From NCBI GenBank assembly GCA_020283715.1, contig JAIQCW010000185.1:1-64000 (forward strand): 64,000 nucleotides of DNA, written 5' to 3'. A model generated the notes under the pieces. The model worked only from the letters and a program-made list of their open reading frames with translations, was not told where the DNA came from and did no database searches. Every line of letters begins with the position of its first letter. Within the stretch, counting starts at the first letter, position 1. A program made the translations under genes and the position numbers. Of the stretch, positions 46-63,291 are shown piece by piece. Source of the DNA: Cytauxzoon felis (taxonomy: Eukaryota > Apicomplexa > Aconoidasida > Piroplasmida > Theileriidae).

Positions 46-686
46 TCCACTCGAGGTTACAGTCCTACTCTCTTCCTCTTGCAGAGAGCTCTCCACCTGA
101 GATCTTTCCACTAGGCGTGGTGCCTCCTCTATTTACTTCCCCCTCAAGCTCCCGTAGATCGCTCTCGGGTAATACACTTGAGGTTACAGCGCATTATCTT
201 CTCCACTCGCCGTTCCACCTGAGGTCGTCTTGTAGACAGCTTCTCTATTAACTTCCCCCTTCGCTTCCCTGAGATCAGCTGCGGGTAGTCCACTTGAGGT
301 CATATTCACTAATTTCACTTTTACATTTTCACCTCCAAAATTTGAAGGAAAATCTGAATTTCTCTGGAAACAACTGACAATATCTCAATCATCATTGAAT
401 GAATATCTGATATTAATACTTCATTGAAAAGGAATTTGATGATTGTATTCAATTTACTGAACCTCACTTAATTCCATTTTATATCCATTGAGATATCCTC
501 ATTTATGTGGATTTCATCACTTTAGACGTATCTCACCGAGATTAGGTTTATAACCTCAGGTGGAAGTGGACTACCCGAAAACGATCTCTGGGAGTTTGAG
601 GGGGAAGTAAAAGGAAGAAGCCACCACGGCGAGTGGAAGGAGAGGTGGACTGGAAAAGGAGTTGGATTGTAACATCGTGTGGAGTG
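46..686. repeat. MHE block with cargo-1 insert
   Basis: Left arm 46-303 has inward units with tags CTCTTGCAGAGAGC, CCACTAGGCGTGG and CCACTCGCCGTT and H- and G-type tails. Cargo-1 lies at 304-556. The right arm has one H tail (CCCGAAAACGATCTCTGGG) and ends TCGTGTGGA. A (TA)n run at 3-32 precedes it. It lies in or after the presumed 3' intron of the leftward coiled-coil gene. Confidence 0.85.
304..556 (-). repeat. Cargo-1 copy (reverse)
   Basis: About 250-bp AT-rich non-coding sequence conserved with copies near 18857, 27291, 51740 and 55480. Landmarks are TTTGAAGGAA, AATATCTCAAT, GAGATATCCTC and CACTTTAG followed by TATCTCACC. It is flanked on both sides by MHE arms, as a passenger would be. 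Confidence 0.8.
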
Positions 687-705
687 TATTATAACTTCAA
701 CATAC

Positions 706-2282
706 GTGATTTTATAATTGAGTGTATGTGTGAGTATATTTTTGAGTCGTAGGCATTCGGCATTGGTATTATGTATTTTATTGGCGTATGTTTCGATAAT
801 TTGTTTATTTGAGTTTATGATTTTATTAATTTCTTGATTGAAGTTATTATTATTATTATTGATGATATTTTGTAATTTATTATTATGATTAATGATCCAG
901 AATAATATATTATTGATATTATTAATAAAATTAAATTCGATAATATTTTGTAGATGTATTAATGAATTATCGATATTAATATTATTAATTAAATGATCAT
1001 TTAATTGTTTTATATTATTAAAATTAAATAAAATATTTAATTCATTATTATTATTTAATAAATTTAATAAATTTAAAATATAATTAGATAAATTATTTAA
1101 TGCATTAATATAAGTATATTTATTATTATCCTTTGGATTTAATTTATTACCATTTATAGTAATATTAGGCATATAAGATAAATCTTTTATTTGATTTAAT
1201 AATTCATTTATATTATCATTTAATTTTATTATTTCTAATTCATTAGATTTTATTTGATTTATATAATTTAATTCATTTAATTTATATTCATTTATATTAT
1301 TTTTTAATAAATTTATATCATTTAATAAAAAATTTTTTTCATTTTCTAATTTATTTAATATAATTTTATTATTTTCTATTTCATATTTTTGTAATTGTAT
1401 TATTGAATATGAATTATCTAATTTTGATTGATATTCATTTAATCCTTCTATATATGACATTCTTTGTTCATTTATTTCATCAAATTTAGATAATACTAGA
1501 TTATATTTATATTGTAATGATTTTATTACATTTATATCATCCGATGTTATCTGGAGGTGAGGGGAATGTTTGAAGTGAGGAGTTTGTAGTTTATTATCAG
1601 AAGTCATTTGATGATGTTTATCAAATGTCGTTTGAGGAAGTTGTTTGAAGTGAGGAGTTTGTAGTTTGTTATCAGAAGTTATTTGATGATGAGGAAGTTG
1701 TTTATCGAAGTGAGGAGGATGTAGTTTATTACTATCGGAGGTTGTTTGTTGTTGAGGGAGTTGTTTATCGAAGTGAGGTTGTTTATCAAAAGTTGTTTGT
1801 AGTTTATTATCAAATGTTGTACGTCCATCATCAAAAGTTGTCTGTTTATTATCATATGTCATCTGATGTTCATCAAATGCTATCATCTGATGTCTTCCAT
1901 CAAATGACATCCGTCCATCATTGAGTGTCATCCCTCCTTCATCACTTTCAATCACTTTACATTCCTTCTTTAAATCATTAGACCATTTTAATAATCTTGT
2001 ACCCTCCTATATATATATAGTAATTAGATACACATGTAAATTATACCTCCTTCAATTCATCAAGTAATAAATTAGTACCCCTTTCATATAATTCCTATAT
2101 TAATGTGTAAATAATAATGATATGAAATTATATCAATTGAAAAAGAGAGAAAATTTTCATCAAACTAACCAAATGATCAAATTTTTTATTAATTTTAAAG
2201 TCATCTAAATGAAGAAAAAAAATTACAACAATTAAATTTCAAATTTCAACAAACCATTATGATATGATTTAATGTCCACCAT
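706..2282 (-). CDS. Asn-rich coiled-coil protein, 3' end not resolved
   Basis: Not recognised by family. I read ATG at 2282 and exons 2282-2255, 2204-2170, 2094-2047 and 2006 to about 706, with introns of 38-75 nt and compatible phases. The N-terminal part (residues about 1-60) is compact and non-repetitive. Next comes a tandem region rich in FDK/TFD/ITSD and LPH motifs, then a long heptad-like coiled coil of Leu, Ile and Asn. At about 706 a GTATGT donor precedes an MHE block, so the frame beyond it (to a stop at 522) probably does not belong to the protein, and further exons would lie left of the window. Divergent from PIG-H. A structural or cytoskeletal role is only inferred. Confidence 0.6.
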
Positions 2283-2629
2283 TTTAATATTAAAAAAAAG
2301 AATATTTAATTAATTTATTATTAAAATTATAAAATAATATTATATAAATTAAATTAAATTATAATCATCTTTTTTAATATATAAAAAATTTCAAATATAA
2401 ATAATATAATCTTATATCATTATCATCTACACATTAGACAGTGCACTCATATATACATTATATAAAAATTATAAATTTATATATTTATATACTTTATAAA
2501 TATATTTCTTTTAATTCTAAATGAATTTATAATAATTATTTATATATAAATAAATTAATTTTATTAATTTAATGAACCCAAGGTAATGAATACCTCTATA
2601 ACTAATACTATAATAAATTATTTATAATA
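2283..2629. other. Divergent intergenic region
   Basis: About 350 bp of very AT-rich DNA between the start codons of the leftward coiled-coil gene and the rightward PIG-H gene. It must hold both promoters. No repeat block and no further ORF is seen. Confidence 0.6.
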
Positions 2630-3304
2630 ATGAAGAAGAATTTAACATTTAGTAAATTGAAAATACCTAATGGTTATATATTTATATCGCAATGTAAACA
2701 TAAATTAATCAATATTTTTATAAAATTTTGTATAATATTAATAATTATTTATATGGTAATTACTTTTTTTATATATTCTTAATTATATATATTCATAATT
2801 TTTAGATTTTTAACTATAATAATGTTAAATCATTCTATATCACACTATTCCTTATACTCATTGGTATAGTAATGTCTAAATGTTTAATTGTAGAAGGTAA
2901 GATTAGATGAAGATTTTGAATTTCAATTCATAAACTCATAGAAAAGCTATTAATGATGGCAAATTTCGGTATACAATTAGAATCTACCAATATATTTGGA
3001 TTTAAGACTGTTAAAAGTATACCCATTGATAATATCAAGCATCTCCTAATCAATGAGGTTAGAATGAACATAAATGACCTCAAATACCTAAAAATATAGG
3101 CATTTATAACATTCGAAGTTATATTCTATATTGTTATTTTAACAAATAATAATGAAGGTAATATTATACCCTTCAAAGTTAGTAACAGTTTCATACATAA
3201 GTTTGACCATGAACTTCATCATATACCATTTATAGGACGCTATACCTAAGCTAGATCACCTCAAAGATATTTACAATACATTCAATACAATTTTTAATAG
3301 ATGA
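2630..3304 (+). CDS. PIGH: GPI-GlcNAc transferase subunit PIG-H
   Basis: Likely subunit of the ER complex that starts GPI anchor synthesis by moving GlcNAc to phosphatidylinositol. Five exons (2630-2755, 2806-2896, 2942-3057, 3100-3177, 3236-3304) with matching phases give 159 aa. Residues about 30-65 form two hydrophobic segments. They are followed by the PIG-H domain signature: a run resembling ESLLxxxxxGVQLE, then IPIDNIKHLLINE and a C-terminal LDHLKDIYNTF. The length suits a compact PIG-H domain protein. GPI-anchored surface proteins are important in piroplasms, so the role fits. The assignment rests on motif order rather than strong identity. Only about 1 kb separates it from adenosine kinase on the same strand. 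Confidence 0.75.
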
Positions 3305-4353
3305 AATAAATTATAATTTCATAACTAATTATACAATAGGATTTCATAAAGATGTATTAACAAATCCAATTAGTATCGCAATCGCAGGTCATTCACTCCA
3401 ATATACACTACACTCCACCTGAGGTCCTCCAGCCGAGATCCAATCACTATCTTCTACTGTTCCACTCGCCGTGGAGGCTTCTTCCAATTACCTATCCCTA
3501 AAGGGTAAAGCCACTCCCAGAGATCGTGGCGGAGGTGGAGGGTAGTGGTGAATGAAGAGTACTGATGTAACCTCAAGTGGAACCCGTAGCTGATCTCAGG
3601 GAAGCGGAGGGGACTAAAAGAAGGAGGCTCCACGCCTAGTGGAAAGAGAGGTGGATTGTAACCTCAGGTGGAGTGGAATGCAAAATAGTACCTAATGTAC
3701 AGTCTTCACTGAGACTGATATTATCTTGTCCAGTGGATTTAAATCTTCAATGTAGTATTATTTGGTATGGATTTACTAATTAAATAGCTTATGTTGAAAT
3801 GTGTAATGGGTTGAATGGTTATTTTATCTTTGACTTATTGCAGCGATGCAATGTACTATTATTTTTTATCGGGTAAGACAAAATTGGCGTTTAAATTTTT
3901 ATTATGGTTTAAGGAGATTAATTAATGTAATTTTAACGAATATGCTTGTGGTGTTGAGGTGAAGTGATACTATCATCTATCCAATACTTGTAGTAATTGT
4001 GTTGGTAATTAACCCGATATTGAAGATTGTACTGGTAAAATTGATGGAATATGGAATTAGAGATATGAAAAAACGATGGCATGAGGTACATATACTTGTA
4101 ATAATATTAGAGTATTGTGTAAATGTATGTTGTTCTCCTGTAAATTTCGGGATGTCCTGATGAAAATGGTGGAATGTTGGGTAAATTTACAAAGTCCCAA
4201 CTCGTTGTTGTCGATTACCAAATTCTTTAACCATACGATACCATGATCTCAAGAGTTGGATATTTTAAGATTATCATTGATCTTGCCTCCAGATTTTAAT
4301 AAGGCTTTGTATACCCATCCACCATTGAACAATTTAATGTGGTAATCATTGAT
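3305..4353. other. Region between PIG-H and adenosine kinase: one MHE block and scattered short open stretches
   Basis: An open stretch at about 3306-3389 ends in a GT donor just before the MHE block. After the block, short possible exons lie near 3843-3871 and 3998-4086; the latter encodes a hydrophobic stretch ending in MKKRWHE. I could not join them into a convincing protein. They may be remnants of a membrane protein gene. Confidence 0.3.
3413..3674. repeat. MHE block
   Basis: Starts CTCCACCTGAGGTC and ends ACCTCAGGTGGAG. The left unit has tag CCACTCGCCGTGG and tail F with stem CCCTAAAGGG. The right unit has tail G (CCCGTAGCTGATCTCAGGG) and tag CCACGCCTAGTGG. Confidence 0.88.
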
Positions 4354-5637: not shown

Positions 5638-6209
5638 ACTGAGGTTAGATCCAACTCTTATCCACTCGCCGTGGTGGCGTTCTCTATTTACTTCCCCCTC
5701 CGCTTCCCTGAGATCAGCTACGGGTTCTCCACTTGAGGTCATGTACTCTAATAATAATGTAAATTATAATACAATAATTACTTTCTCTCAATTATTTACA
5801 ACCTTCTTATAACATTATATTAATTTTATGAAATGTAATTATTTATAGATGTCTATTACTACCATATATAGGTAGTATACTTCAATTCATGTTAGTAGTT
5901 AAATAGTATATATATTATAATAATTATTTATATTAATACATATATATCTTCTTACAACTATACATTATCCTTCAATTGTATTGATATATGAGTATATATT
6001 ATATTAAGAGAGAAATCTTCAATAGACATTAATATTGTAGTGGAAATGGTGTTTTTTATCCCTATATTAATGGGGTATATGTGGCGATGAAGAAGGTAGT
6101 GATGTAACCTCAAGTGGATTACCCGTAGCTGATCTCGGGGAAGCGGAGGGGGAGGTAAATAGAAGAGCTGACGGCAGGACGAAACTTGTGGATTGGACCT
6201 CAAGTGGAG
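5638..6209. repeat. MHE block with cargo-2 insert
   Basis: Left arm 5638-5742 (tag CCACTCGCCGTGG, reversed G tail). Cargo-2 in reverse orientation lies at about 5746-6060. The right arm at about 6100-6209 has a G tail and tag GCTGACGGCAGG and ends GGACCTCAAGTGGA. Intergenic, between adenosine kinase and DPM1. Confidence 0.83.
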
Positions 6210-7973: not shown

Positions 7974-9225
7974 ATGACTGATGAAATCAACCTAGAAAAC
8001 TTCTACAAGACAGATCAGAAATTAACAACTGCCCAGAAAAATAAATTAAAGAAGAAACAAAAACAATACTTACAACAATTACAAGATGAAGAAGAAAGAT
8101 CAAATGGTAAGATGATGAATCCTCAAATTATAACAATTATTATTATATTAAATAGCTAAAGATAAAGGGAAAGAAGAACTAGATGCAATAAATAAAATAT
8201 TAAAACTCGATAATCTAGAAATCTTTCATATCAAAGGTGATGGTAATTGTCTATTCAAGTACGTTTACACATAGAACCTAGAAATAAAGTGTTCTAACTC
8301 CACCTGAGGTCCACTCCTAACTCTCTTCATCCTGCCGTCAGCTCTTCCAATTACCTATCTCTAAAGAGTACAGCCACTCCCAGAGATCGTGGCGGTGAGA
8401 AGGGTAGTGATGGATCATCCATCATGGGAATGATGGAAGATGGTGCTAAGGATGTTAGTACTGGACCTCAAGTGGATCCCGCAGCTGATCTCAGGGAAGC
8501 GGAGGGGGAGGTAAATAGAAGAGCTGACGGCAGGATGAAGAGAGGTGGATTGGACCTCAGGTGGATAGCTGTCTGCATAACGAAGATAAGGTTTAGCATA
8601 CGCATGTTCCCTTCTCTTAATTCTTCATTATATGATAATGTAATGGATTCATCTTTAGTGTCTTTATATATTTAAATTTAGATCTGTCGAACATCAATTG
8701 ATGTCATCGCAAGAGGATTTTATTCCTCGTTATGATCATGTCACATTAAGATCAATGGTCGTTGAGTATTTACGTAATAATAGAAATGTATATGAACCAT
8801 TTATATATGGTAACGATTTACAAGGTATGCTTCTATAATAGACCTAGTACCCCATAATTATATATATAGTTGATGATTATAAATTATATTGTGATAAAAT
8901 GTCTAATGATGGTGAATGGGGGTATGTAAATTGAAAACAATAAAATTAAATTGAATTATAGTGGTGAAATTGAATTACGTGTCATTTCTGAATTATTAAA
9001 ATGTAAAATCATTATACACAACATAGAATCGCCAATAATATATGTACGTTGATATTTTACCCCATGAATATATGCTGTTTTTTTACCCCACTTAATAATA
9101 TATATAATTTAAATACTCCCAATTTATAGGAGCACGATGATGCATTATTTACAATAAATTTATCCCTACATAAACATATTTATACATTAGGATATCATTA
9201 CAACTCCGTAATAACAAAAACATAA
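7974..9225 (+). CDS. OTU-family cysteine protease (deubiquitinase)
   Basis: Predicted to remove ubiquitin or a ubiquitin-like protein. Six exons (7974-8106, 8156-8258, 8682-8824, 8870-8921, 8962-9043, 9130-9225) splice in phase to 202 aa. The N-terminal 45 residues are Lys/Gln-rich and helical. The OTU core starts at IKGDGNCLF with the catalytic Cys at about 76 followed by KSVEHQL. The region after DGEWGGEIEL matches the strand-helix step ending LRVISELL. The C-terminal GYHYNSV supplies the catalytic His at about 194. Length fits an OTUD6-like minimal enzyme. Intron 2 holds an MHE block. Its stop lies 2 bp from the stop of the convergent PHD/ELM2 gene. Confidence 0.87.
8299..8590. repeat. MHE block in OTU intron 2
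   Basis: Left unit tag CCTGCCGTCAGC with tail F (stem CTCTAAAGAG). The centre carries the hairpin TCCATCATGGGAATGATGGA. Right unit tail G with tag GCTGACGGCAGG. Sense order F then G. Confidence 0.87.
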
Positions 9226-9227: not shown

Positions 9228-12200
9228 TCATTTACCAGCAGCCATATTATGTCTACGTAATAAATAACCGCGCAGTGTAACCGGTGGTGGATATGGATTA
9301 GTAGGAACCTGACCACGCCTATCCTTAGGCTTCCACTTATTGTCATATTTACGAGTCGGCGGATCACAAACACCTATAAATCACAATATAAAATATATAC
9401 ACGCTATTCACCACACGAAAAACTTATGACTGATCCACCTGAGGTTACATTCCTGCCGTCAGCTCTTCTATTTACTTCCCCTTCCAGCTCCCGCAGATCG
9501 CTTCCAGGTTCTACTTGAGGTCTAATCACTAACCTCTCACCGCCACGATCTCTGGGAGTGGCTTTACTCTTTAGAGATAGGTAATTGGAAGAGGCACCAC
9601 GCCGAGTGGAATAGAGTAGGATTGAACCCTTGGTAGAGGTAACCTCAGGTTGACAATCATTGTATCTCTTCGTATCCGTATGGATGTGTGTGTTTATGTA
9701 CTTACATGTAAAGTTGAAATTGGGATCGTTCATGAATTTGAGTGCCTTATTTGGATCATAATCGGCAAAGTGTAGTATTTTATATGCGAATTCTGGTGAG
9801 AATGGGTGCCATCCTGGACTATTTTTCCAACTTTTAGCACACATTTGAATGAATTCAGCAACTAAAATTGAATTTTCATGTATAAATATAAGTATAACTT
9901 CAGTAAACATACGTTCAAATTCATTCTTTATCACATTGTCCTGGTTTCCCTCCTGTATCCTCTTACGACGAATCTTCTCCAATTGATAAGGAGAATACAT
10001 CAACCTCGCCCAATCCTGACCTATATTAAATTATATTATACAATCCATATTGTTGATACTAGCACAGGTTTACTACAACTATAGTCCACCTGAGGTCCGT
10101 CATCCTCTCTTCCTCCTGCAGACAGCTCTTCTATTTACATTTCTCTAAAGAGTAGAGCCACTCCCAGAGATCGTGGCGGAGGTTGAATGAAGAGTAGTAC
10201 TAGACCTCAGGTGGAGTACCCGTAGCTGATCTCAGGGAAGCGGAGGGGGAAGTAAATAGAAGAGCTGTCTGCAGGACCAACGGTGGAGGCGAGTGGAAGA
10301 AGAGGTGTAGAGATTGGACCTCAGGTGGAGTGCTCAATATGTTCATTTGGTGTAAATAGAGTATGACATACGTTGTGAATTGAGGTTTGCGGAGTCATCG
10401 AGGAAGAATGCGGGTGTGAAAGGTACTTGATGGTTGTATCCGACATTGATTCTGGTGGTGAAGTTTGAACCTTCGGATGCTGGTTTTTTTCTTTTCTTTT
10501 CGTTGGTATCTTCAATTGTTCTTGTTGGGCTTAGTGATGTTCTACTTCCTTTACCAATTGATCCTATTATAATTAGATGATTATAATATAATTCATACCA
10601 TCTAATGCTTGTATATCATCATTTGTAGTTGTTAAACCTTCAGATTCTATAGAACCATCATTACCTTGACCATCTGACATTGATTTCCATTGACATTGTG
10701 GACATGTCCAATCTTTAGTATCGTCCTTTATACGAAAACAATCTAATAAACACTAAATTAATATAAAATGAATTTATTAATATGGGGTTTAAGAAAACTC
10801 ACCTCATTATGATAGAGCAAATCACATTTAGAACATGATAACAATGTGCCTTCTGATATCGAACATTCAGCACAACATGAAGCATTCTCGACAATTTTCA
10901 AAGGCTAAAGAATGAAAAATGAAGATGAAACACTCCAGAATGAAATCAACCAAAGAAGGAATAGAGTGAACGGAAGAGGAGGGATGAAGCTAGGGATGGA
11001 TACTCAAATAAGATGCCACAATGTATGTTGAGGAGTTCTAGGCTTAGGCTTAGCATTTTGATCGTTATACCATTTACCATTTGGTCCAATTACAGATTTA
11101 CTAGGAGTACCAGGATGATAATCAATATCCAAAAGTGCAATGAATATTATCCTTTGCTATCCCTACTGCATTAGTAGTAGGATTACCTTTAACTTGTACT
11201 GTAGGAGGATTAGGTTTATTACTGGAGTCTTTTGTCACTTGAAAGTAAACTTTATTACCAGTAAGAGACGTAGCGTCTACAGTTGTACCACTTTGTTCAG
11301 CCTCAAGATTATTAAAGGCAGAACCTGTGTTATAACCTTGTATTTGTGTATATTCTAAATGTTGCTCTGTGAAATTAATCCCCTTAAGATTAACTTTATC
11401 CTCAGAATTTGCCTTTAAAATGCATACAAGCGCTGATGTTATGGCAAATATTGAAAAGAGAATGCCGATTAACACGTAAATTATAGAAGATTCTATGGAA
11501 CATGACATGATCAACCCAATGAATATACCAGCGAAGGCTAGACTTGCCGTGGCGGAAGATATAATTAGAGGTTCTTTAATAGGAGCATCTGTAATAGTAG
11601 TTGTCCAATTATTGATAGGAGATTTGCCAAGTTCACTTTTAACTTGTTCACTAAAATAAATTCCAACAGCTCCCCATCTTTTAAAAAGATCTACTTCAGC
11701 AGGAACTGGTATAGCATCAGAAGGAGCACTATATTTACCAGGATTAGGACCACCAGAAGTATTTTGAGTTGCATCTCGCGTATCGTATTTGTATTCTATT
11801 TTTCCGTGGGTAGCGTCAGTTGTGTTTTGATTATTAGAAGCTTTGGCATTATCTCCCATTGTGAAAATAAGATGAGTTAATAATAACATATTCCAACATT
11901 GATCGACGGTCCATAGTATGGAGATAAGGCTACATGTGCACAGTGCCAATATGGACGTTTACTCCAATTAGTTGTTCCAGTAACTCCACCTGGTCCATTA
12001 GCTGGAACACCTGCACCATCTAGTATATCCAATAAGCTATACAGAAGGAGTATACAAATACAAATTCTGGCATTATCTGTAGCAGCTTGTGGAGTTCTAC
12101 TGTATAATACAAACACCGCTATCGCACTCGATATCGCAATTCCTCCAAAGGTAAGAGCAGATGTAGATACAATGAATGTGAAGAGGAACAGGGGAGCAGC

Positions 12201-14605: not shown

Positions 14606-17600
14606 ATGAATGAATCAATGCAATCATCTCATATTTCATCAATGGATGATGAATCATCTGATAAAGAGACTATAGATTATAATGAAGAATGGTTATATTT
14701 ATTAAGGATAGGTGATTTAAAAGGTGCTATAGAATTATTAAATAATCATCTAGTACAAGATATATATTATAAAAATGAGGATGGTAATACAGCATTACAT
14801 TATGTATGTGCTAATAATTTACCAGAATTAATAGTATTTTTATTAATAGAATGTAAATTTAATTATTGTATATATAATAATAATGGTAATACACCATTAC
14901 AATGGGCAATACAAACAAATAGTCGTCAATCTGTAGAACAAATTTTATATTTCGATTATAAATTACATGAAGATTATTATAATAATTTACAACCCAATGA
15001 ATTTTTAAATCTTGTCAGTAAGTTTTTTTTCTTCCCCCTCCTCCTCACTCCATCCCTCTTCCTCCTCATCTTCCTCACGTCCTCCTCACTCCACCCCTCC
15101 TCTTCCATCCTCCTCATCTTCATCTCATATTCAACATTTATAGAGGGTTATAAATTAAATAATAATAATCAATTAGATTATAATACAAAAATATTTTATA
15201 ATATCATCAATTATCCATCCAATTATAAATCCATCAATAATATTAATCTTATCAAACAAAATCTATTCGGTAAAAGCCTACTCAATGATGCATTCAATTG
15301 TAAAGATGATTATATACTACAATTAATACTAGAACATCCAATCGCAACAATACTCGATCAACAACCCAATCATCATAATGAAAATGACAACAATCCATCT
15401 GAAGTTCAATCCACATCTGTTCCACTCGCCTCCACTGTTGGTCTTGCAGACAGCTCTTCTAATTACTTCCCCGTAAACGGTAATGCCACTCCCGGAGATC
15501 GTGGCGGAAGTATAATCACTGGACCCCAAGTGGAACCCGTAGCTGATCTCAGGGAAGCGAAGGGGGAAGTAAATATAGAAGCCACCACGGCGAGTGGAAA
15601 GGAAGGTGTAGTAAATGTAACCTCAAGTGGACCTGGAAGCGATCTATGGGAGCTGGAAGGGGAAGTAAATAAAGAAGCTGACGGCAGGACCTACGGTGGA
15701 TTGACCTCAAGTGGAGTATTGATGGATAGTATAGATGAGTTGGGATTAGCATCTGTGATACATGAGATGTGTATGGATGGTGGTATGGGTGATGGTCCTA
15801 TAATATTGATACGTGAATTGGAATTACGTGGTGATGATATATTGGATCCATTAGATGCTAATAATGATATAAGTGGTGAAATTATATGGGAAGCATCTAT
15901 AGTTGCATCAAATTGGTATTATTTATTATTAAAAAATGAACAATTTAATAATAAATCTATATTAGAACTTGGTTGTGGTTGTGGTGTTTGTGGTATTTCT
16001 ATACTTAAAGGTATGGAAATGTATAAATTTAAATTAAAAAAATTATTATTAACCGATTATTCAATCAATACTATGAATAATCTACATTTCAATATACAAC
16101 TTAATAAACTTAATATCAATACACAACAAGTCAATTGGACAATCGAATCTACATGGCCACAAGAGGTTTGTTTATATATTATATACCGAAGGTTCTTCAT
16201 CTGAAGCCCAATCCAACTCTCCTTCCACTCGCCGTTCCACCTGATGTTCTCTTGCAGACAGCTCCTTTATTTACCTCCCCTCGGATTCCCATAGATCATC
16301 CTCGGTATCATGTATACTCGGAGGAACAAAAATGTTAAGGAATTTAATCGTTGAATGTATCGGTGTTAAAATTAATTCTACCAGTTCTTTTACCGTTTTT
16401 ATCAAATGGTTTTGTGTATTTATCAGCAGCAGTAGTTCCGTCCCATTCCTCTGCATCGTTTTGTATTTGTGCTCCTGCGAATCTTATGGATTCCGTGAAA
16501 ATGGTTACAGATCACGTATGGAACACCAGAAATCCAACCAATTAAATGCCACCACCATCTTTGACCACCACTAGTGTTATTGTTCCAGTTATAAGCTGGA
16601 GGTTGATTATTATTCCCTGGACCTGTTCCTCCAGGTCCTAATTTATGTCTGTGTTCAGGAGTAGTACAATTATCAACCTCATCCAATAAAAGTGATGGAG
16701 AGGACATAATAGAAAATTATATATCCATATTGATCCTGTAATATGCCTTGAAGATTAGTTTTATTATCCGAATGATTTGGATGTTTACTTTGATCAAGTT
16801 GACCAGCTCCAGTACCAGTTGGTACTTGTGTCCATTTAATCGTATCAGGAAATGGATTATTAGGGGTAGCTTCAGGTTTATAATATTTATATTCCTTGTT
16901 ACTACCAGTACCATATTTCGCTACGCATATCAGTATGGGAACGCCTCCAAAGAAGTATACATGAACATAATGGACATCATTTTCTGTAATAGCTTGACGT
17001 GGACCACCTTCACCAGGTTTAGTTATTGCTGTTCCTCTATTTTTAAATGAAACACTATTCATCTTCTTATATTTCATCTCATTATTTTCAAATCCGAGAG
17101 AATAATGCATGTATACTCGTATTGGATGCATTGGATTGTCATGAGTTTCCCATACAGAAACATTTTCATTACCAGATTGATATCCATTTGTTTTATCTAT
17201 ATGTATATCAATGGTACCACTAACATCAGTTGAATGCTTACCATGCTCTGCTATACCAGGTTTACCATCCACTAATGTCCCTGGTTTACATTGAATGGAA
17301 GACTATAAAGGTCATCTATAACAATATCCTCATGACTATTGCCACCCCAACCATCATAATTATGTCTATTATTAGAAGAATTGACTAGTTGATAATTATT
17401 AGCATCAAGACCCGTAGTACCGGGAAAGACACCATCTTGTAATTGGGTGTGATTATTCCCGCCTGGGTTATAGTCATTTACAGTAGTTTCATTACCACTA
17501 CCACCAGTCTTCTTTTGTATCTTATAAGTACAATCTTGTAGTTTTGTAACGGTATATTTTGAAGTGTGTTTTCCGTGGTTGGTATAATCAGGTTGATTAT

Positions 17601-21418: not shown

Positions 21419-21972
21419 CTCTACCTGAGGTCCAATCCACCTCTCTTTGTCTTGCAGAAGCTCTTCTATTTACTTCCCCCTCCGCTTCCCTGAGATCAGC
21501 TACGGGTATTACAATTTAGGTATTATCATCATATTCTATATACCCTCTATTATGGGGTGATTACCCCATAGTCCAAATTCATATAGTAATTTCATACTCT
21601 TCCAGTAATTTATAATGTATAATAATACAATTGAAGGATGATATATAGTTGTATGAAGGTATATAAGTATTAATATAAATAATTATTATAATATATATAG
21701 TATATAACTACTAACATGATGTGAAGTATATCACTATTAGGATAATAGTAGATATATATAAATAATTACATATCATAAAATTAATATAATATTACAAGAA
21801 GGTTGTAAGTGATTGAGAGAAAGTAATTATTGTATTATAATAAAATTAATTTAAATGTTATTGTGGATTGGACCTCAGGTGGAGACCTCAAGTGGACTAC
21901 CCGCAGCTGATCTACGGGAAGCGGATGGGGAAGTAAATAGAAGAGCTGACGGCAGGACTGACCTCAGATGGA
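21419..21972. repeat. MHE block with cargo-2 insert, intergenic
   Basis: Left arm 21419-21515 (tag CTTGCAGAAGC, reversed G). Cargo-2 forward at about 21530-21845, opening with the hairpin ATGGGGTGATTACCCCAT. Right arm at about 21860-21972 (tail G, tag GCTGACGGCAGG). Confidence 0.84.
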
Positions 21973-24131: not shown

Positions 24132-26699
24132 ATGACAGTTTTAGGATCGGGTTTACCAACATCATCATTAGTAAAATTAGCACTCAGTAAAGCCAAGGTG
24201 GCATTTGAAACATGTGAAAGGTATGAAAGGATATCTTCAATATTATCAAATCTACGTACAAATCCAGATGATAAAAAATATGAATCAATTCCATTACAAA
24301 TGTCTAACTTATTTGATAGAAATGATGAGAAAATTATAAAAAATAATGTAATACCATTATCAATGTCAGATTTAAATAAATTAATTAATTCAGAACCTTT
24401 AAATTATCAACCTAAATTATTAAAAGTTGTAGGTTGGTGTAAATCTATAAGGAAACAAAATGCTGGTAAATTATTATTTGTTATTTTAAATGATGGTAGT
24501 TGTAAAGCTAATTTACAAATTGTTGTACATGAAGGTGCTGATGGACATAATATAGCATCTAAATGTACATCAGGATCATCAATAAAAGCTACTGGTATAA
24601 TTGTAGCTAGAGATGATGTTAATGCCAATGTTAATGTAGATTCAAGTTATGAAAGTCTAGAATCTGTATCTAATAAATTTGAATTACATGTCAGCTCATT
24701 AGATGGTCATTCAATCGAAGTATTAGGACATAATGTAAATCCAGCTAAATATCCTATAGCTAAAAAATTTATTACCAATGAATTCTTAAGAGAAGTTGCA
24801 CATTTAAGAGCAAGAAGTTATCTAATCAGTGCTGTTATGAGAATAAGAAATGCACTCGCATTCGCTACACACCTTTATTTCCAAAAATTAGGATGCATCT
24901 ACTTCAATTCACCCATTATAACCACCGCAGATTGCGAAGGAGCAGGTGAACTCTTTCAAGTCACAACATTACTCGATGGTACCAAAACACTAGCAGAATT
25001 ATCAACCAAAATGGGACATGGTATGTATTAACCATCTCTTTATTGATCCAAGACCCAATCCACCTGATGTCCAATCCAACTCTTCTTCCACTCGCCGTTC
25101 CACCTGAAGTCGTCTTGCAGACAGCTTCTCTATTTACCTCCCCCTCCGCTTCCCTGAGATCAGCTACGGGTTCCACTCGAGGTCCAGTACTAGTCGTCAT
25201 TCCACTCTCCCTGGAGGCCTTATTTACCTCACCTCGACTCCCATGGATCGTCTCGGATATTTCGCCACGATCTCTGGGAGTGGCTTTACTCTTTAGAGAT
25301 AGGTAATTAAAAGAGCCTCCACGGCGAGTGGGAAGAAGACCTCAGGTGGAAAGCTGTCTGCAAGAGGAAGATAATGGATTGGACCTCGAGTGGATATGTA
25401 TGTATATATGATAAATTTATATAGGTACATTTAAGGAGAAATCATCATTAGTATTTAAGAAGGATTTTTTTTAAGAAGCCGGCATATTTGACATGTAGTG
25501 GTCAATTATCATTAGAGGCATATGCATGTTCGATGGGTAGTGGATATACATTTGGTCCTACATTTCGTGCTGAGAATTCACATACTAATAGACATTTAGC
25601 AGAATTTTGGATGATAGAACCTGAATTAAGTTTTACAGATTTATATGGTAATATGGAAATAGCAGAAGAATATATAAAATTTGTAATCAATTATGTATTA
25701 GATCATTGTATGGATGATATGATTTATTTTGATAATAATATAGAAAATGGATTAATCCAACGATTAAAAAATGTAGTCAATTCCAAATTTGAACGTATTA
25801 CATATAATGATGTTATCGATATATTATTACAACATGAAGAAGATTTCAAAAATGGACTCGTTAAACCTATACTAAATGATAACAACAACAATACATCTAA
25901 AGACTCTACACACGAGGTACAATCCAAATCTTCTTCTCCTGAAGAGAGCTCTTCCACCAAGGTCCAATCACTGTCTTCTCCACTCAGCGTTCCACCTGAG
26001 GTTGGTCTTGCAGACAGCTCTTCTGATTACCTATCCCTGAAGGGTAATGCCACTCCCGGAGATCGTGGCGAAGAATCCGAGACGATCCATGGGAGTCGAG
26101 GTGAGGTAAATAGAGAGGCCACCACGGCGAGTGAAAAAAAGAGTAGTACTAGACCTCGAGTGGAACCCGTAGCTGATCTCAGGGAAGCGAAGGGGGAAGT
26201 AAATAAGGAAGCTGTCTGCAAGACCAACGTTGGACCTCAGGTGGAAGACAAGGTTGTAACATCGAGTGGAGGTGCATTTGAGTATGGTGTATATTGGGGT
26301 ATGGATTTGCAATCAGAGCATGAGCGTTTTATATCTGAGGTAATATTTAAGAAGCCTGTAATAATATATAATTATCCATGTAAGATAAAAGCATTTTATA
26401 TGAGGAAAAATGATGATGGTAAAACATGTGCTGCTATGGATGTTATTGTACCAAAAATTGGTGAACTTGTAGGTGGATCACAACGTGAAGAAAGATTAGA
26501 TATATTATTACAATCAATTAAAGATAATAATTTAAATGAAAAAGATTATTGGTGGTATATAGATCTTAGAAATTATGGTACAATACCACATTCCGGATTC
26601 GGACTCGGATTCGAAAGACTCATCATGATGGTCACAGGAATACAAAATATCAAAGATGTTATTCCATTCCCAAGATCACCCGGTAATGCAGAATTCTAA
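24132..26699 (+). CDS. NARS: Cytosolic asparaginyl-tRNA synthetase
   Basis: Charges tRNA-Asn. Exons 24132-25020 and 25425-26699. The N-terminal anticodon-binding OB fold (KLLKVVGWCKSIRKQ...GKLLFVILNDGS) is followed by the class II core. Motif 2 reads FRAENSHTNRHLAEFWMIEPE, the middle has YWGMDLQSEHERF, and motif 3 reads GFGLGFERLIMMVTG, ending DVIPFPRSPGNAEF. At 25465-25472 a run of eight T throws the frame by one; seven would restore DFF-KKPAYLT, so this is a likely base-call error. An in-frame MHE (25911-26271) inserts about 120 aa into the variable region before YWGMDL. Intron 1 holds another MHE in antisense orientation. Confidence 0.94.
25058..25394. repeat. MHE block in AsnRS intron
   Basis: Left tags CCACTCGCCGTT and CTTGCAGACAGC with reversed G and I tails; right reversed F and tag GCCTCCACGGCGAGTGG. 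A 100-bp core is nearly identical to part of the block at 19674. Antisense order. Confidence 0.87.
25911..26271. repeat. In-frame MHE in AsnRS exon 2
   Basis: Stop-free insert. Peptide landmarks NATPGDRGE (F), SETIHGSRGEVN (I), PVADLREAKGEVN (G). Order F, I, G in the sense direction. Absent from typical AsnRS proteins. Confidence 0.86.
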
Positions 26700-27191: not shown

Positions 27192-27655
27192 TCACTTGAA
27201 GACAATCCACCTTTCATCGTCTTGCAGACAGCTTCCTTTATTTACTTTCCCCTCCGCTTCCCTGAGATCAGCTGCGGGTACCACTTGAGGTCAATAATCA
27301 CTGTCATTCACTACTTCATTTTTACCCCTAAAATTTGAAGGAATTTCATCATTTCTGGGGAAACTCTTGAAGATATCTCAATGAATATTGAATGTATTTC
27401 TGATGTTAATACTTCATTGAAGAGGGATATTAATGCTTTATCTATTTTTATCATCCTCAATTCATTCCAATTTATACTCATTGAGATATCCTCCCAAACA
27501 TGAATTCCGTCACTTTAGTCTTATCTCACCCAGATTAGGATTATAACCTCAGGTGGAACCTGGAAGCGATCTATGGGAGCTGGAGGGGGAAATAAATAGA
27601 GAAGGCGCCACGCCTAGTGGATAGACCTCAGGTGTATTGGAACTCAAGTGGATGA
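27192..27655. repeat. MHE block with cargo-1, intergenic
   Basis: Left arm tag CTTGCAGACAGC and reversed G tail. Cargo-1 reverse copy at about 27291-27545. Right arm has tail H and tag GCGCCACGCCTAGTGG and ends AACTCAAGTGGA. Confidence 0.84.
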
Positions 27656-37300: not shown

Positions 37301-40300
37301 TAATTACTCCAAAGAACTTATCAAATCCATCATTCATACACAAAATGATTATAATCATAACTCTCATTCCACTCTTCGTCCTGCAGACAGCTCTCCACCT
37401 GAAGTTACCACCACTGTTCCCACTGCCGTGGAGGCCTCTTCTATTTACCTATCCGTAAACGGTAAAGCCACTCCCAGAGATCGTGGCGATGTCAACCCGG
37501 AGGAACAAAAAGTGTTAACCCGGAAGAACGAAGATAATCAACCCCTAAGAACAGGAAATCTACCCGGAAGAACAAAGAATGTCAACCCGGAAGAACAGAC
37601 TTCCACTGAGGTCCAACACAACTCTCTTCTTCCTGCCGTCAGCTCTTCCAATTCACTCCCCGTAAACGGTAATGCCACTCCCGGAGATCGTGGCGGTGGA
37701 GAGGGTAGTCATTGGACCTCAAGTGGATTACCCGCAGCTGATCTCAGGGAAGCGAAGGGGGAAGTAAATAGAAGAGGCACCACGTCTAGTGGAAGGACCT
37801 CAGGTGGTGAAGACAATGATGTATCTTTGGTGGATGATATATATTGTAATGAGTATTATACAAAGATGTTAAATAATGATGATAAGAGTATGAGTATAGA
37901 ATTGAATTGTTTAAGTATAGATGATGGTAATAGATTAATATATGAGAGTGATATGATAAATAGGGTATATGATTTTGAATTAATAAAAGCTAAATTGATA
38001 TCGGTATCAAATAGAGAATATTATTTAATAAATGATGAGATAATACCAAATATAGAATATGTATTATTAAATATAAATGAGAATAAATATAATAATATAT
38101 ATTATGGTAAATTAATATCAATAGCTATAAAAATGCCTATTGATTGTAAAAAACAATTATTAAATATATTAAATGATAGAATAAATTTACAATTTAAACA
38201 TTTAAATACAGAATTATTATTAAATGATTATAAAATTTCTGATAAAATTGAAATTAATAAACAAATTGAAATATTATTACAAACATTAAATATAATTAAT
38301 AATAATAATTTATTAAATTATAATATTAATGAATTTAAAGATTTTATATTATTATTTCATATATCTAATCTTAATTATTGGTATTTTGAATTTGAAATGG
38401 AACCATTTGAACCTATATTATCAATGTCATTTGGTATCATCGATAATATCGAATATCTACTCGTAGGTACATGTACTAATCTAGGTGAAAATGTTGAAGC
38501 TAGAGGTTTCATATATATACTCAATTTCTATAGCACATGTACACTACCCAATACATTACCACATCCAATCATCACACATCCACTAATATATAATAATCCA
38601 CTCGATGTCCAATCCACATCTGTTCCCACTGCCGTGGAGGCTTCTTCTAATTATCAATCCGTAAACGGTAATGCCACTCCCGGAGATCGTGGCGATGTCA
38701 ACCCGGAAGAACAAAGAATGTTAACCCGGAAGAACGAAGATAATCAACCCGGAAGAACAAAGAATGTTAACCCGGAAGAACGTGATCCTAAAGATGATCT
38801 AACCTCAAGTGGATTACCCGAAAGTGATCTACGGGAACTTGAGGGGGAAGTAAAAGGAAGAGCTGACGGCAGGAATGTAACCTCAGGTAGAACTGGTGTA
38901 GGTGGTGATGTAACCTCGAGTGGATTATCTAAGGAGTTAAGATTTGACATGATATATCGTAGTGGTAGATGTAAGCGTATGAGTGTGTATACAAAGAGGA
39001 TATTTTCGGGTCCGATAACATATATAACATCATTGAGTAGTGATTATGATATGTTATTTAGGGCAAATTTTGATTTTAAAAATGATTTAGAATCATTAAA
39101 AGATACTACAATAGAAAAAACTAATCATAATAAAAAATGGGCACTTAGTCATTTTATGCCAAATTCTAATCATTTTGTACATTCTGTTGGATCATCAATA
39201 TTTGTACATGAAATCACCGATAAACAATTCATTAGAGGTGCATTCACAGAAATACCAATCTGTGTCTCTAACGCATGCGTCTTCAATAAATTCATCATCG
39301 CAGGTGATATCAATAAAGGAATCTCATTCTTCATGTATGTTTATAATACTCCAATCCACTCCACCTGAGGTCCAATCTACTACACCTTCCTTTCCACTCG
39401 GCGTGGAGCCTTCTTCCAATTACCTATCTCTAAAGAGTAAAGCCACTCCCGGAGATCGTGGCGAAATATCCGAGACGATCTATGGGAGTCGAGGTGAGGT
39501 AAATAGAGAAGCTGACGGCAGGAAAGACCTCAGGTGGAAAGGCCTCCACGGCGAGTGGAAGACCTCAATTGGATGTGTATGATATATAAAATATAGGTAT
39601 TGTCATGATGCTACAAGTGATTCAAGGAATATATGTAAGATAGCGAGTACATCACCTAGGGCTGATTTATCAGTTGTTGCTTGTGCACCATTGGTGAATA
39701 AGGAGAATATTGGTATATTATGTAGTGATTTTAATGGTAATTTGATATTATTTTCTAATGTTAAGGATGAAAAGAATAGTAGGGATGTAAGTATTTATAT
39801 AAATTTTTTTATGTATAGATTATAATATTTTTTTTATAGACATTATATGTTGATGCTATTGTTAGATTAGAGAATAAAATTATACAATTTGTTAGAAGAG
39901 AAATGGATTATAATAAAATTGGTCAACCAGTTTGTATGGTAAATTTATATTATCATAAATTTTAATAATTAATATTACAGCTTGGTTGGACAAGAAGTGG
40001 TGGTATTATAAAAATATTTATGCCAGATTCTAAAAAATTTTTATTATTTAAATTAATACAAAATGCATTAGAAAATATTATTGATTTTAAATTTGGTATC
40101 ACACAACAAACATTTTCTGTACCAATTTTATCACCACAAATGAAACAAACACAATTAATATGGCCTAAAGATGATCATATTTTATTATTAGATATATTAA
40201 TGTGTGTTTTTTTTATATATATAATATAATAATTTTATTATATTTAGGAAATTACCATTCCTATCTAATGATAAATTAAATAAAGTACTTGAAAAAATTG

Positions 40301-43684: not shown

Positions 43685-46600
43685 ATGAAGTTGTTGGAGA
43701 TTAATTCATATAACAAAATTACAAATTCCTCGAGAATATATTCATTTAATTCCGTCAATTCATTTAATACCATAAAAAAGTCCTCGAAGATAAACCCATC
43801 CACTTCCGTCAATTCATCTAAGTATATAAAGTATAAAGTATCATTATATAGTCCATATAAATTAAATGGTTTAATTAAATGTTTATTAATACCATACTTT
43901 GGTAAAAATAATCCTATTCTAAATATATTTAATGTGAATAATACTCAAGTCAATGTAAATAATAATCTTCAAGTAAATATAAATTACAATAGGAATATAT
44001 TTAATTATACAGCATTAATATTAATACATTTATATAATTATGGATTAATATTAACACATTATCATTATATTAAATTATTAAATATAATTATATTAAATAT
44101 AAATGATATAAATAATATAAATATAAATATTGTATTAAATAGTTTAATAATATGTAATAAATTAATATTAAAATTAAATAAATATAAAAATAATATAAAA
44201 ATTAATAATAATATAAATAATTTATTAAATTTAATAAATTTATATATAAATAATATTATAAATAAAATTTTACCATTATTAAATAATAATAATAATATAA
44301 TTATTTATGAATTTGTTAATATATTATATAAATTAAATATTAATAATAATAAATTTAATAAATTATTAATTAATAATTTTTATAATAATAATATTTATTT
44401 ATCTAATAATGAATTAATTAATTTATTAGAATATACACTCTATCTCAATCTAAATGAATTAAATAATGAAATCATTACACTCTTATTATATAATTTCTAT
44501 AATCTTAAATGGATACAATTAATGAATGTAGTAAATATACTTTATAATCATAACCTCAAATCTACCCAATTCATACAAGAAATCATCAAATTCTTATCAA
44601 ATTCCGATTGCTGTATACCTGAAGTCTATCCTACCGTCAGCTCTTCCACCGAGGTCCAATACACATCTCTTCGTCCTACCATCAGCTCTCCACCAGAGGT
44701 TACAACCAATGTTCCACTCGGCGTGGAGCCCTCCTCCAATTACCTATCCGTAAACGGTAATGCCACTCCCGGAGATCGTGGTGAGGGTTGTGATGGATCA
44801 TCCATCATGGGAATGATGGAAGATGGTGCTAAGGATGTGTTGGATGTAACCTCAAGTGGAATACCTGTAAGCGATCTACGGGAGCTGGAAGGGGAAGTAA
44901 ATAGAGAAGCTGTCTGCAAGACGACCTCAGGTGGAACAGCGAGTGGAATGAAGAGTAGGATTGGACCTCAAGTGGAACCCGCAGCTGATCTCAGGGAGGC
45001 GGAGGGGGAATTAAATAAGAGAGCTGTCTGCAAGACGAAAAGAGGTGGAGAAGACGTCATTAGACCTCGAGTGGAACCCGAGAGTGATCTCAGGGAGCTT
45101 GAGGGGGAAGTAAATAGAGAAGGCCACCACGGCGAGTGGAAGACCTCAGGTGGAGAAGCTGACGGCAGGACAAAGAGACGTGGATTAGACATCGAGTGGA
45201 ACAAGGTTGTAAGTTCATATGGAAGAACTTCAAGTGGATATAATGGAAAGTATGTGACATCAGTTGTTATTGATGATGTAAATCCTCATCCTAGGATATA
45301 TTATATTCATCCTAGTGATGTTTGTAGGATATTAATGTTGATGAATAAATTTGATATAGTAGATCAGGATTTTTATGAATTAATATTGATGTATATATCG
45401 ATAATTAATGATAAATATATTAATAAATGTAATATAGATGAATTATTATCATTAATTTCAATAATACCTAATGTTAATAATAAATTTAAAGGTAAATTTA
45501 TAAATTATATTTCAAATATTTTATTAAAACATTTAATACAATTTAATACACCATATAGAATTAAATGTTTATTTAATATACTTGTTAATATCGACTTTAG
45601 ACATTTACCTTTAAATTTATTAACATCTAATATTTGGATTTTAAGTCATGGTTATTCAAATCTACCATCAATTATTAAATTGATTTTAAATGATTTAAAT
45701 GTTAATACTATATTAAATATTATTATCACTTATAGTCTAATTTTATATCCATCAAATTCTACTATTAATAAACTCATTGATGAATCATTACATCTAGTCA
45801 TTAATAATTTCCATATCCCATCATTAATCAATAATAATCTCAAATTATCCAATCATAATATACTAACTTCTCCACCTGAGGTCCAATCCAACTCTGTTCC
45901 ACTCGCCGTGGAGGCTTCTCCCAATTACCTATCTCTAAAGAGTAGAGCCACTCCCAGAGATCGTGGCGGTGAAGGTAGTGATGAAGGTTGTGATGGATCA
46001 TCCATCATGGGAATGATGGAAGATGGTGCTAAGGATGTGTTGGATGTAACCTCAAGTGAACTACCCGAGAGCGATCTACGGGAGCTGGAAGGGGAAGTAA
46101 ATGGAAGAGCTGACGGCAGGACGAAAAGAGGTGATAAGACTTCAGGTGGTAAAGATAGTGATTTGAAATCGATTATAACTATAGATGAGTATGATAGATA
46201 TGTATATGATACATCAAAGAGGGCGAATTATAAATATCTTAAAAGGGGTGATTCTGGATGTAGGAGTTATAAGAGTCTTGATAGAATAGTGAAATATAAG
46301 ATTGATGTTGGTTCTATTGATAATATGATATTAAATAGTTCAAGAATTAATAATAATGAATCATTGAGTATAATACGTAATATTTATAAAAGTTTATATA
46401 TTTATTATTATTTAACAATTGAAAATAATTCATTAAGATTTTTATCATTGAAAACACTTGAGATGTTAATAAATTTTATAAAGTTATATGAAATTTATTT
46501 ACCAATTCTAACAACAAAATTTGATACAATAGATCAAGACTATACTCTTTATAATATAATTAATAATGATAATAAAAAATTTAAAAAATTAATTAAATCA

Positions 46601-55102: not shown

Positions 55103-55974
55103 ATTTTATTATTTATATTGTCTAACACTATGGTATGGTACCATTAATTACACCGACATATTATTCACCATAAATTACTTAATGAATAATAATACATTAT
55201 TTTTATCTATCCATTAGTTATTTAATCGTATGAGGTTGATTCAAGTTAAGAATACAATATATATTAATAAGGTGTAAGGATACTATTTCAACATATTTTT
55301 CAACGCCCAGCAAGGCTATCTCTATCTCCCATTCAAACTCCCGTAGATCGTTTTCTGGTTCCACTTGAGGTTACGTCTTCTATCTTCTTTGCCACCTTCT
55401 CAATGTCTTGCAGACAGCTCTTCTATTTACCTTCCCTTCCAGCTCCCGTAGATCGCTTCCAGGTTCCACTTGAGGTTAAAATCTAATCTCGTCAGATAAG
55501 ACTAAAGTGATGATATTCACTCAAGTTAGGATATCTCAATCAATATAAATTGGAATTAAGTGAGGATTAGTAAACTCAATACAATCATCAAATTCCTTTT
55601 CAATGAGATATTAACATCTGAAATTCATTCAATCGTCACTCTACAATCTTCAGTAGTTTCCGAAGAATTTCAGGATTTCCTTCAATTTTTGGGAGTAAAA
55701 ATGAAGGTAGTGAAATTAGTTATTGTAACCTCAAGTGGAACCCGTAGCTGATCTCAGGGAAGCGAAGGGGAAGTAAATAGAAGAGGCGCCACGCCTAGTG
55801 GAAGAGTGTAGGACTAGACTTCAGGTGTAGGAGAGGACGTGGTATATAAGTATGTATTATATTTTAAAAAGTTGGAGTTAATTATTAATATTCAATTAAG
55901 AAGATTTTACAGTGTATAATTTTCATGTGTTCGTTATATAAATGACGATTACATGATATATTACTTGTTTAAAA
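55103..55974. other. Region between TFIIF alpha and PCNA
   Basis: AT-rich promoter of TFIIF alpha (55103-55310), then an MHE block with cargo-1 (55315-55830), then the short 3' flank of PCNA. Confidence 0.5.
55315..55830. repeat. MHE block with cargo-1, intergenic
   Basis: Left arm degenerate H, then tag CTTGCAGACAGC with reversed H. Cargo-1 forward at about 55482-55722. Right arm has tail G and tag GCGCCACGCCTAGTGG. Confidence 0.84.
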
Positions 55975-58460: not shown

Positions 58461-61829
<3,369 letters not shown>

Positions 61830-61936
61830 AACATATAATAAATCTAAAATTAAATTAAAATATTTTAATTGTACCATAGTACATTATAATTATATAGAAA
61901 TACAATAGTTCCGAGTTTCAGTCATATCGACACCTA

Positions 61937-62167
61937 TCCACTCCACCTGAGGTTACCACTCCTTTACCACTCGCCGTGGAGGCCTCTTCTATTTACTTCC
62001 CCCTCCGCTTCCCTGAGATCAGCTGCGGGTATTCCACTTGAGGTTACATCCTCACTACCTCTACATTCGCCACGATCTCCGGGAGTGGCTATACTCTTTA
62101 GAGATAGGTAATTGGGAGAGGCTCCACGCCTAGTGGAAGAAGAGTGGGATCGGACTTCGAGTGGAAG
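61937..62167. repeat. MHE block, intergenic
   Basis: Left tag CCACTCGCCGTGG with reversed G; right reversed F and tag GGCTCCACGCCTAGTGG. Lies between the convergent RUVBL2 and the one-TM gene. Confidence 0.86.
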
Positions 62168-62201
62168 TGTATTATTGGTAATAATATTGAATATGTGTGG
62201 A

Positions 62202-63291
62202 TTAATTTGTGGGTAGTTTTTGTAGATTTCTATATTTGGGTGGTATATAATCTTCTGGGTTGATATCTGGATTTCTCCATTTTTTAGCTCTTCTAGCTTC
62301 AGCATATTGTACGTATGAATGATGATCAAGTACATGACCTAAATTATGCCATACAAAATGTTTGAAATATTCATCATGAGGCATTGATGCTTCAGGTGGT
62401 TCAAATCTTTGTTTCCATAATGATTCAACAAATACAAATATAAATGGGAATAAAAAACTACCATATAAAATATACATAAATCTCCAACGGTATTTAGCCG
62501 ATTGCCATATCTCAGATATTGTATAACGATTAATAAAATTTTTTACATCAAAAAATTTAACCAATTCATCCTCATTAAATGCATTTACTGATGGTAAACG
62601 ATAACTTGCATAATTATAACCACCATGCATAGGCTTACGTCCCATATTTAACTTCTGCATAGGATTATCAACCACACCATCCGGATTCAATTCATTATAT
62701 ATCGCATCACTACGAAGCTCCGGTAATTTTATACCTATAAATATATTATTTGTCACATAAACATAAATATATATAACATCAACCGTAATCAGCTCTCCAC
62801 CCGAGGTCCATCCTGCCGTCAGCTTCTTTATTTACATATCTCTAAAGAGTAGAGCCACTCCCGGAGATCGTGGCCGAAGTATAGTCACTGGACCTAAGGT
62901 GGTGACCTCAAGTGGATTACCCGTAGCTGATCTCAGGGAAGCGAAGGGGGAGGTAATTGGAAGAGGCCTCCACGGCGAGTGGAATGGCGAATGGGGAGAT
63001 GGAAGGATTGGACCTCGAGTGGAGAGATGTCTACGAGGCTAAATGATTGGCCACGTGGTGAGACAAATAAAAACGGATAATAACGGTAGAGAGTTTAATA
63101 TTAAAATATCCAATTTACATTTACCATGCATATGTAAACAAACCTTTAGCAACTGCTCTTTCTAAACGTTTTTCTTCATTATGATGTACATCATGCAGGG
63201 TAGGGTGATATACAACACCAGCTCCCGGTTTGAAACTAACAAGTGGACTTATTCGAAATATATATAAAGGTTTAGATAGTTTAATATTCAT
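62202..63291 (-). CDS. Conserved-looking one-TM protein, probably mitochondrial
   Basis: Not recognised. Exons 63291-63144 and 62734-62202 join in phase to 226 aa. The N-terminus is basic and hydrophobic (MNIKLSKPLYIFRISPLVSF), compatible with mitochondrial import. The only strong TM helix is MYILYGSFLFPFIFVFVESLW (near residue 150). The C-terminal third is His/Tyr/Arg-rich (YFKHFVWHNLGHVLDHHSY, then RRAKKWRNPDINPEDYIPP). This layout is typical of accessory subunits of the alveolate respiratory chain or ATP synthase, but that is inference. The single intron holds an MHE block in antisense orientation. Confidence 0.6.
62797..63024. repeat. MHE block in the one-TM gene intron
   Basis: Left tag CCTGCCGTCAGC with tail F; right tail G and tag GGCCTCCACGGCGAGTGG. 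Antisense to the host. Confidence 0.87.

Follow-up and report, generated by a model that had tools for sequence, protein, structure and literature searches.

Rickettsia palindromic elements (RPEs) are described as selfish palindromes residing in frame in unrelated protein genes of bacteria; they are about 150 bp long and fall into ten families (PMC10969869). Repetitive extragenic palindromic sequences and bacterial interspersed mosaic elements (REP/BIME) form mosaic inverted arrays whose palindromes are reported to be kept by complementary changes (PMC2817692), and Foldback (FB) elements such as Tm1 are described as composite inverted repeats of subrepeats around a centre (PMC3169594). Palindromic elements that are scattered and apparently selfish are also described from organelles, as in the mitochondrial DNA of Volvox (PMC2670323). 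Here we describe a family of hairpin repeat blocks in a stretch of 64,000 nucleotides from Cytauxzoon felis, a piroplasm parasite of cats (assembly GCA_020283715.1, contig JAIQCW010000185.1, positions 1 to 64,000 of the forward strand; hereafter the window). In behaviour this family resembles the RPEs and in construction the BIME and Foldback mosaics, yet it lacks a tested defining feature of each. Organelle GC clusters are a further comparison, the composite C. felis blocks being larger.

The terminal motif of the blocks, CCACYTGAGGTY (CORE), is present at 152 sites in the window with at most one mismatch, against a shuffled mean of 0.36 and a shuffled maximum of 3, and 97 sites are exact. 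Across the whole assembly, with its 181 contigs and 8,623,106 bases, exact copies number 6,816, and a reversed control motif is absent; the family is dispersed at thousands of sites. Blocks were defined by landmark clustering in a non-random working sample that includes the window and totals 216,083 bases on six contigs, C108, C1, C2, C3 and C100 being complete and C4 represented by its initial 60 kb. This gave 136 blocks with a median length of 226.5 nt and a total of 29,771 bases. They are islands of 51.2% GC in surroundings of 28.9%. Scaling from genome-wide counts of the core, the tail loop and the D hairpin (described below) gives an estimate of 3,341 to 3,918 blocks, or 8.5–9.9% of the genome. 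The original prediction, of a single modular family of GC-rich hairpins packed densely into the nuclear genome of a piroplasm, is borne out; its figure of about 45 blocks in the window was too low, 55 of the 136 clustered blocks lying there (46..63024). The family is real rather than an artefact, and more unusual than first described. A FAINT/DUF529 gene in the window, recognised by a Pfam profile match, fits a piroplasm.

A match to a known family had been named in advance as grounds for rejecting the prediction, and no Rfam family matched in the window at the gathering threshold. We found no description of the family in the titles and abstract openings of the papers listed in literature searches, and a 2022 survey of 64 apicomplexan genomes lists C. 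felis as having no transposable elements (PMC9141347). About a tenth of a pathogen genome reported to be free of such elements is a single undescribed repeat.

A canonical block reads CORE, spacer, tag, linker TTCTATTTAC, hairpin D, spacer and inverted CORE, followed by inverted tail A, B or C, linker, tag, spacer and CORE. Such a block would form a long imperfect hairpin, its two arms of interchangeable units (CORE, spacer, tag hairpin, linker, tail hairpin) enclosing a variable centre. The block at 10085..10329 (plus strand) is of this form, running from CORE-spacer-tag-linker-D to CORE-tail A-linker-tag-spacer-CORE, and folds as a rod with a z-score of −9.9 (RNA). Two other blocks chosen for folding gave −5.2 (RNA; 25900-26272, in the asparaginyl-tRNA synthetase, AsnRS, gene) and −3.5 (DNA; 3405-3680), the latter spanning a canonical block at 3414..3672 (plus strand) that is closed in every frame. 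The units had been predicted to point to the block centre, and 135 of the 136 sample blocks keep all units of one direction (>) before those of the other (<), although just 57 show both kinds under the motif pattern applied.

The four tails of the original prediction proved to be variants of one hairpin, an invariant 11-nt loop TCCCNNAGATC on differing stems (D, GCCAC/GTGGC; A, GCT/AGC; B, AGC/GCT; C, GAC/GTC), and further, rarer stem pairs exist. Some blocks also have AT-rich centres between inverted COREs. One such centre, E, is about 275 nt long and lies at 290..563 (plus strand), 27281-27556, 51733-51997 and 55466-55738; another, F, is 390–470 nt long and lies at 5729..6117 (plus strand) and 21421-21882. 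By eye F has inverted repeats of its own and may be a relic of a longer element.

A tail stem of at least three pairs forms in 236 of 248 copies, whereas shuffled partners give a mean of 84 and a maximum of 106. For the 56 distinct copies in the window, pairing holds at 96.4% of stem cells against 59.1% when shuffled, and the covariation score is 0.974 against 0.267, slid versions reaching at most 0.350. Pairing is almost strictly Watson-Crick, with G-U in 3 of 744 stem cells; so few are harder to reconcile with an RNA helix than with a hairpin of DNA or with mechanical correction of palindromes. Most of the 12 unpaired tail copies (11 stem types) look by eye like the left half of one tail joined to the right half of another. 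The tags are also small hairpins, with a modest excess of stems of at least four pairs (83 of 119, against a mean of 54 and a maximum of 66 in mononucleotide shuffles).

Tags and tails combine freely, as predicted. A tag was recognised in 236 of 248 units and not in 12; with 19 units bearing other tails left out, tag type is independent of tail type over the remaining 217, whose tails are A, B or D (chi2 3.58, p = 0.73), although one tag row (g4) is small. The further statement that no two blocks are alike is nearly right, the closest pair being 96.7% identical over 364 nt as part of an intragenic duplication in a CPSF gene.

The blocks had been framed as interrupters of introns, which overlooks their in-frame insertion in exons and their translation; many are exonic, an unusual location in a cell nucleus. 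Of the introns longer than 200 nt that they were predicted mostly to interrupt, two were read, in an OTU-like gene and an asparaginyl-tRNA synthetase gene, and each holds a block. A block was called exonic from its flanks alone, which avoids circularity, if 210 nt on each side, starting 20 nt outside the block, were open on the same strand; coding flanks are thus open frames and not transcripts. Thirty of 117 merged sample blocks have such flanks, and 23 of these are stop-free and keep the same phase on both sides, against 19 of 459 open frames (4%) in blocks lacking coding flanks (P = 2e-26, assuming independent blocks). When block-free 240-nt segments with the same kind of flanks were drawn, 2,190 of 2,705 kept phase and had no stop, a proportion close to 23 of 30, and exonic blocks therefore behave like ordinary exon. 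With a finer split of the blocks, 32 of 41 block-strand pairs pass, 7 are out of phase and 2 have stops.

Exonic blocks lie in the sense orientation wherever this can be read: counted by eye, 20 of the 32 passing pairs have a sense D hairpin and none an antisense one, the other 12 being unreadable. Among all 136 blocks the hairpin lies on the plus strand in 43 and on the minus strand in 42, with no exact match in 51. Non-exonic blocks with a D hairpin have on average 1.7 stops in the frame used for coding against 3.8 and 5.9 in the other two sense frames, and they are open in that frame in 18 of 64 cases against 1 of 128 for the others. These non-exonic figures alone are informative, since exon labels were chosen by openness and the value for exonic blocks (21 of 21) follows by construction. 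Coding compatibility thus looks like a property of the family, and some of the open non-exonic blocks may be unrecognised exonic copies.

Two genes were compared with relatives, and in both the orthologs lack the inserts. In the AsnRS gene (Pfam PF00152) an exonic block at 25908..26272 (plus strand; outer degenerate units set by eye, landmark clustering giving 25991-26270) is open and in phase. It corresponds to about 133 extra residues between conserved motifs of the catalytic domain, where seven relatives (Theileria equi, T. annulata, three Babesia species, Plasmodium gonderi and one further protein) have none or a short loop. The genome has one full AsnRS locus, and weaker matches on three other contigs are taken for other class II synthetases. 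An intron of the same gene holds a block at 25059..25394 (minus strand) with its D hairpin antisense and with stops in all three plus-strand frames, the splice sites being read by eye. Between the two blocks, at 25425-25490, the second AsnRS exon slips frame in a T run relative to the other species, probably through a 454 homopolymer error.

The CPSF-A open reading frame (ORF; 31845-39368) is 2,507 aa long and aligns with Babesia ovata CPSF, the only ortholog returned; BLAST gives six collinear segments, all of them clear of the blocks. Exonic blocks on the plus strand at 33707..34313, 35051..35369 and 36875..37808 are in phase and open, and all lie outside the BLAST segments. Another, at 38597..38924, passes the flank test and sits between conserved segments, CPSF-A residues 2230 to 2370, with this block inside, corresponding to residues 1586 to 1606 of B. 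ovata. The exonic block at 35981..36560 (plus strand) holds a 364-nt stretch that is 96.7% identical to the block at 33.7 kb; the duplication (33728-34090 and 35981-36343) takes in neighbouring coding DNA as well. At the start of the ORF, in 31802..32336 (plus strand), the part at 32072-32336 is open and in phase, while 31802-31904 and the merged block fail the upstream flank test. A recurring peptide module, NPEEQ...RTKN...NPEEQ, lies between block arms in the CPSF-A translation and is perhaps another centre module.

Evidence on transcripts comes from a published antigen gene. A GAF-domain gene on the minus strand (27691-30477, Pfam) contains three in-phase open exonic blocks (28561..28819, 29035..29287 and 29504..29791), and the peptide of the last was compared with 5.8 billion proteins, the search being limited to those of about 510 to 1,620 aa that have short words in common with it. 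Two of 427 candidates matched, both of them alleles of the C. felis surface antigen cf76, a studied vaccine candidate. The longer allele matches over 723 aa at 100% in one open frame at C114:6540-8708, its published location being contig00195:6540-8711 (PMC6310948), and holds two blocks. The gene is reported to be a single exon, expressed in vitro and sequenced from eleven samples, its 2,172-bp ORF and fragments of it having been amplified from cDNA of DNase-treated RNA, cloned and sequenced (PMC3748084). The full ORF with both blocks was thus recovered from cDNA, and at least these blocks stay in mRNA.

At the protein level, most differences between the two cf76 alleles lie within the first block or immediately ahead of it and consist of added CORE-spacer-tag units and changed tags; the alleles thus differ by whole units inside one block. 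A 30-bp tandem repeat reported in the C-terminal region (PMC3748084) is probably, judging from the sequence, a duplicated EADGRNVTSGG unit, which is 33 nt here. A further 94 matches to cf76 occur in the genome, many in long open frames (62 of 3,347 candidates scored). Two of the published primers for cf76 fragments lie in block sequence; one has 9 exact genomic sites, and the other has no exact site in the 216,083-base sample. Sera of surviving cats are reported to react strongly with full-length cf76 and its C-terminal region and more weakly with the other two regions (PMC3748084), and in subsequent vaccine work cf76 was reported to be a weaker immunogen than antigen c88 (PMC10058880). With two blocks in the protein and two primers in repeat sequence, both cf76 serology and PCR may be affected, and a serological test that uses antigens with blocks may be detecting a peptide they have in common. 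Block-encoded peptides may also be common to seroreactive proteins in the microarray antigen list of PMC6310948 (Table 1).

Outer block units show more decay than inner ones. From outside in, successive COREs have on average 0.91, 0.50, 0.42 and 0.38 mismatches (147 arms, tag-like matches filtered out), and the outermost CORE is worse in 77 arms and better in 33 (paired p = 8e-8). Among 14 listed near-identical tracts shared between blocks, the intragenic CPSF duplication alone extends beyond the edge of the block at each of its two sites; the remaining 13 all fall short of a whole block. Relative to expectation from length, tract ends are found in tags at 1.69x, in COREs at 1.03x and in tail loops at 0.07x; the enrichment in tags is partly trivial, since alternative tags end identity, and is not used as support.

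On balance we think it probable that the C. felis nucleus harbours, in these blocks, a selfish family of fold-back DNA repeats with hairpin arms of interchangeable units, and that this family spreads by hairpin copying. Copying near the centre is favoured by the decay of the outer COREs and the pattern of tract sharing, together with the lack of target-site duplications and of a match to the transposase profiles searched. Spread and growth would depend on hairpins in folded single-stranded or cruciform DNA, by template switching or by opening of the hairpin tip, and new units would enter near the block centre. Selection would then remove exon copies that break the frame, leaving survivors in one open orientation and phase, translated as tolerated and probably disordered peptide inserts.

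A non-autonomous cut-and-paste transposon of the MITE (miniature inverted-repeat transposable element) or Mutator-like Foldback type, its transposase lost or too diverged to be recognised, would account for the terminal inverted repeats and for composite inverted-repeat arms around a centre, as described for Tm1 (PMC3169594). We regard it as unlikely, given that block units are heterogeneous and that of the 14 listed tracts only the CPSF duplication crosses block edges, the other 13 falling short of a whole block. The target-site duplications expected at block edges were not found in 73 blocks at lengths 2–6 and 8 and offsets 0–3, the best values never exceeding the shuffle maximum. Four families were searched by profile in the genome, and of these DDE_3 and MULE, the DDE-type families covered, gave no match, nor did Y1_Tnp, which matched 5 of 14 control genomes. 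The fourth, RVT_1, matched one ORF that reads by eye as telomerase, and this profile thus found no other reverse transcriptase of the kind a short interspersed element mobilised by a long one would need. Slightly less likely still is an account without transposition, in which recombination, gene conversion and template switching in replication have reshuffled ancient repeats and made them uniform. Units exchanged between blocks, chimeric tails joined at the loop and the cf76 allele differences all speak for such processes, which alone fail to place blocks in genes whose relatives have versions without them (AsnRS, CPSF).

That the blocks are Introner-like elements, the exonic ones being spliced out, is largely refuted and now very improbable. 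By eye the CORE ends resemble splice sites (GAG|GT, CAG|G), and blocks do occur in introns. However, in the two introns read by homology and by eye (in the AsnRS gene and an OTU-like gene) the block lies inside a larger intron with its own outside splice sites, the element ends not being used; exonic blocks stay open and in phase, and cf76 cDNA is reported to yield the full 2,172-bp ORF, blocks included (PMC3748084). Assembly chimera or contamination, the other ground on which the prediction was to be given up, is refuted for cf76 and otherwise has a negligible probability. A 454 assembly containing some cat reads (PMC3748084) would allow for it, but cf76 with its blocks was recovered separately by amplification of cDNA and has been sequenced in eleven samples (PMC3748084), and 6,816 exact cores are spread across the genome. 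The D hairpin pattern has 4 isolated matches in a bacterial collection, where by rough reckoning one to a few are expected by chance, and 0 in a viral search; a plasmid search with one block gave no match.

Several observations weigh against hairpin copying of a selfish, coding-compatible element. We infer block movement; none was observed directly and no empty site was found, and the missing target-site duplications and profile matches count here as they do against a transposon. The gradient from outer to inner COREs could reflect stronger constraint inside. Two of the five covariation measures are not above shuffles in the 56 window copies: 3 pairs have changed in both partners against 3.0, and 5 further types of pair are seen against 7.8. 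A hairpin need not have been required, since mechanical correction of palindromes could also yield covariation that lacks G-U. Of the 30 blocks with coding flanks, seven fail, six through loss of phase and one through a stop, and five of the 23 that pass share one gene, making independence incomplete. At the end of the CPSF-A ORF, the block at 39360..39573 (plus strand) has flanks in phase and an internal stop. Retention in mRNA is known from one gene, cf76.

Set beside the known systems, the blocks share with RPEs, named beforehand among the nearest analogies and here supported in behaviour, the hairpin-forming palindrome and in-frame insertion in unrelated genes (23 of 30; AsnRS, CPSF). For retention in mRNA and translation, the published cDNA speaks for cf76. 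Unlike RPEs, they reside in an apicomplexan nucleus, form a mosaic of freely shuffling units, occur also in introns and may number several per gene; none of the 4 bacterial matches to the D hairpin pattern is rickettsial, the RPE sequences themselves not having been aligned. REP/BIME differ in being bacterial, extragenic and associated with RAYT tyrosine transposases, whereas the C. felis genome has no Y1_Tnp match. The composite inverted repeats of Foldback elements are present in C. felis; Tm1 differs by its target duplications, reported as mostly 9 bp, and its putative transposase (PMC3169594), neither duplication nor MULE being found here. MITEs share the terminal inverted repeats and differ in their target-site duplication, and the Volvox elements are organellar, unlike the nuclear blocks. 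More tentatively, the family may be the first nuclear counterpart of the RPEs: living mobile hairpins with no recognised transposase that grow from the centre, double as coding sequence and seed related peptides through many unrelated proteins, including two stretches of the vaccine-candidate antigen cf76. With a selfish hairpin in frame in nuclear exons, the absorption of selfish inserts by proteins becomes directly testable.

Other blocks of the window lie in further genes. An exonic block at 15394..15715 (plus strand), between ankyrin and methyltransferase domains recognised by Pfam, is in phase and open, as are two blocks on the plus strand (44689..45238 and 45871..46150) in a 1153-aa ORF that has no Pfam match. 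The gene around 8299..8565, which we take to be OTU-like, has exons that read GDGNCLF...SVEHQL, and its intronic block at that position (plus strand) has stops in two of the three plus-strand frames. At 12865-12960 (minus strand) there is a sub-threshold Rfam match to the C/D snoRNA snR55 (29.3 bits, E-value 0.79, gathering threshold 50, in a search at E-values up to 1).

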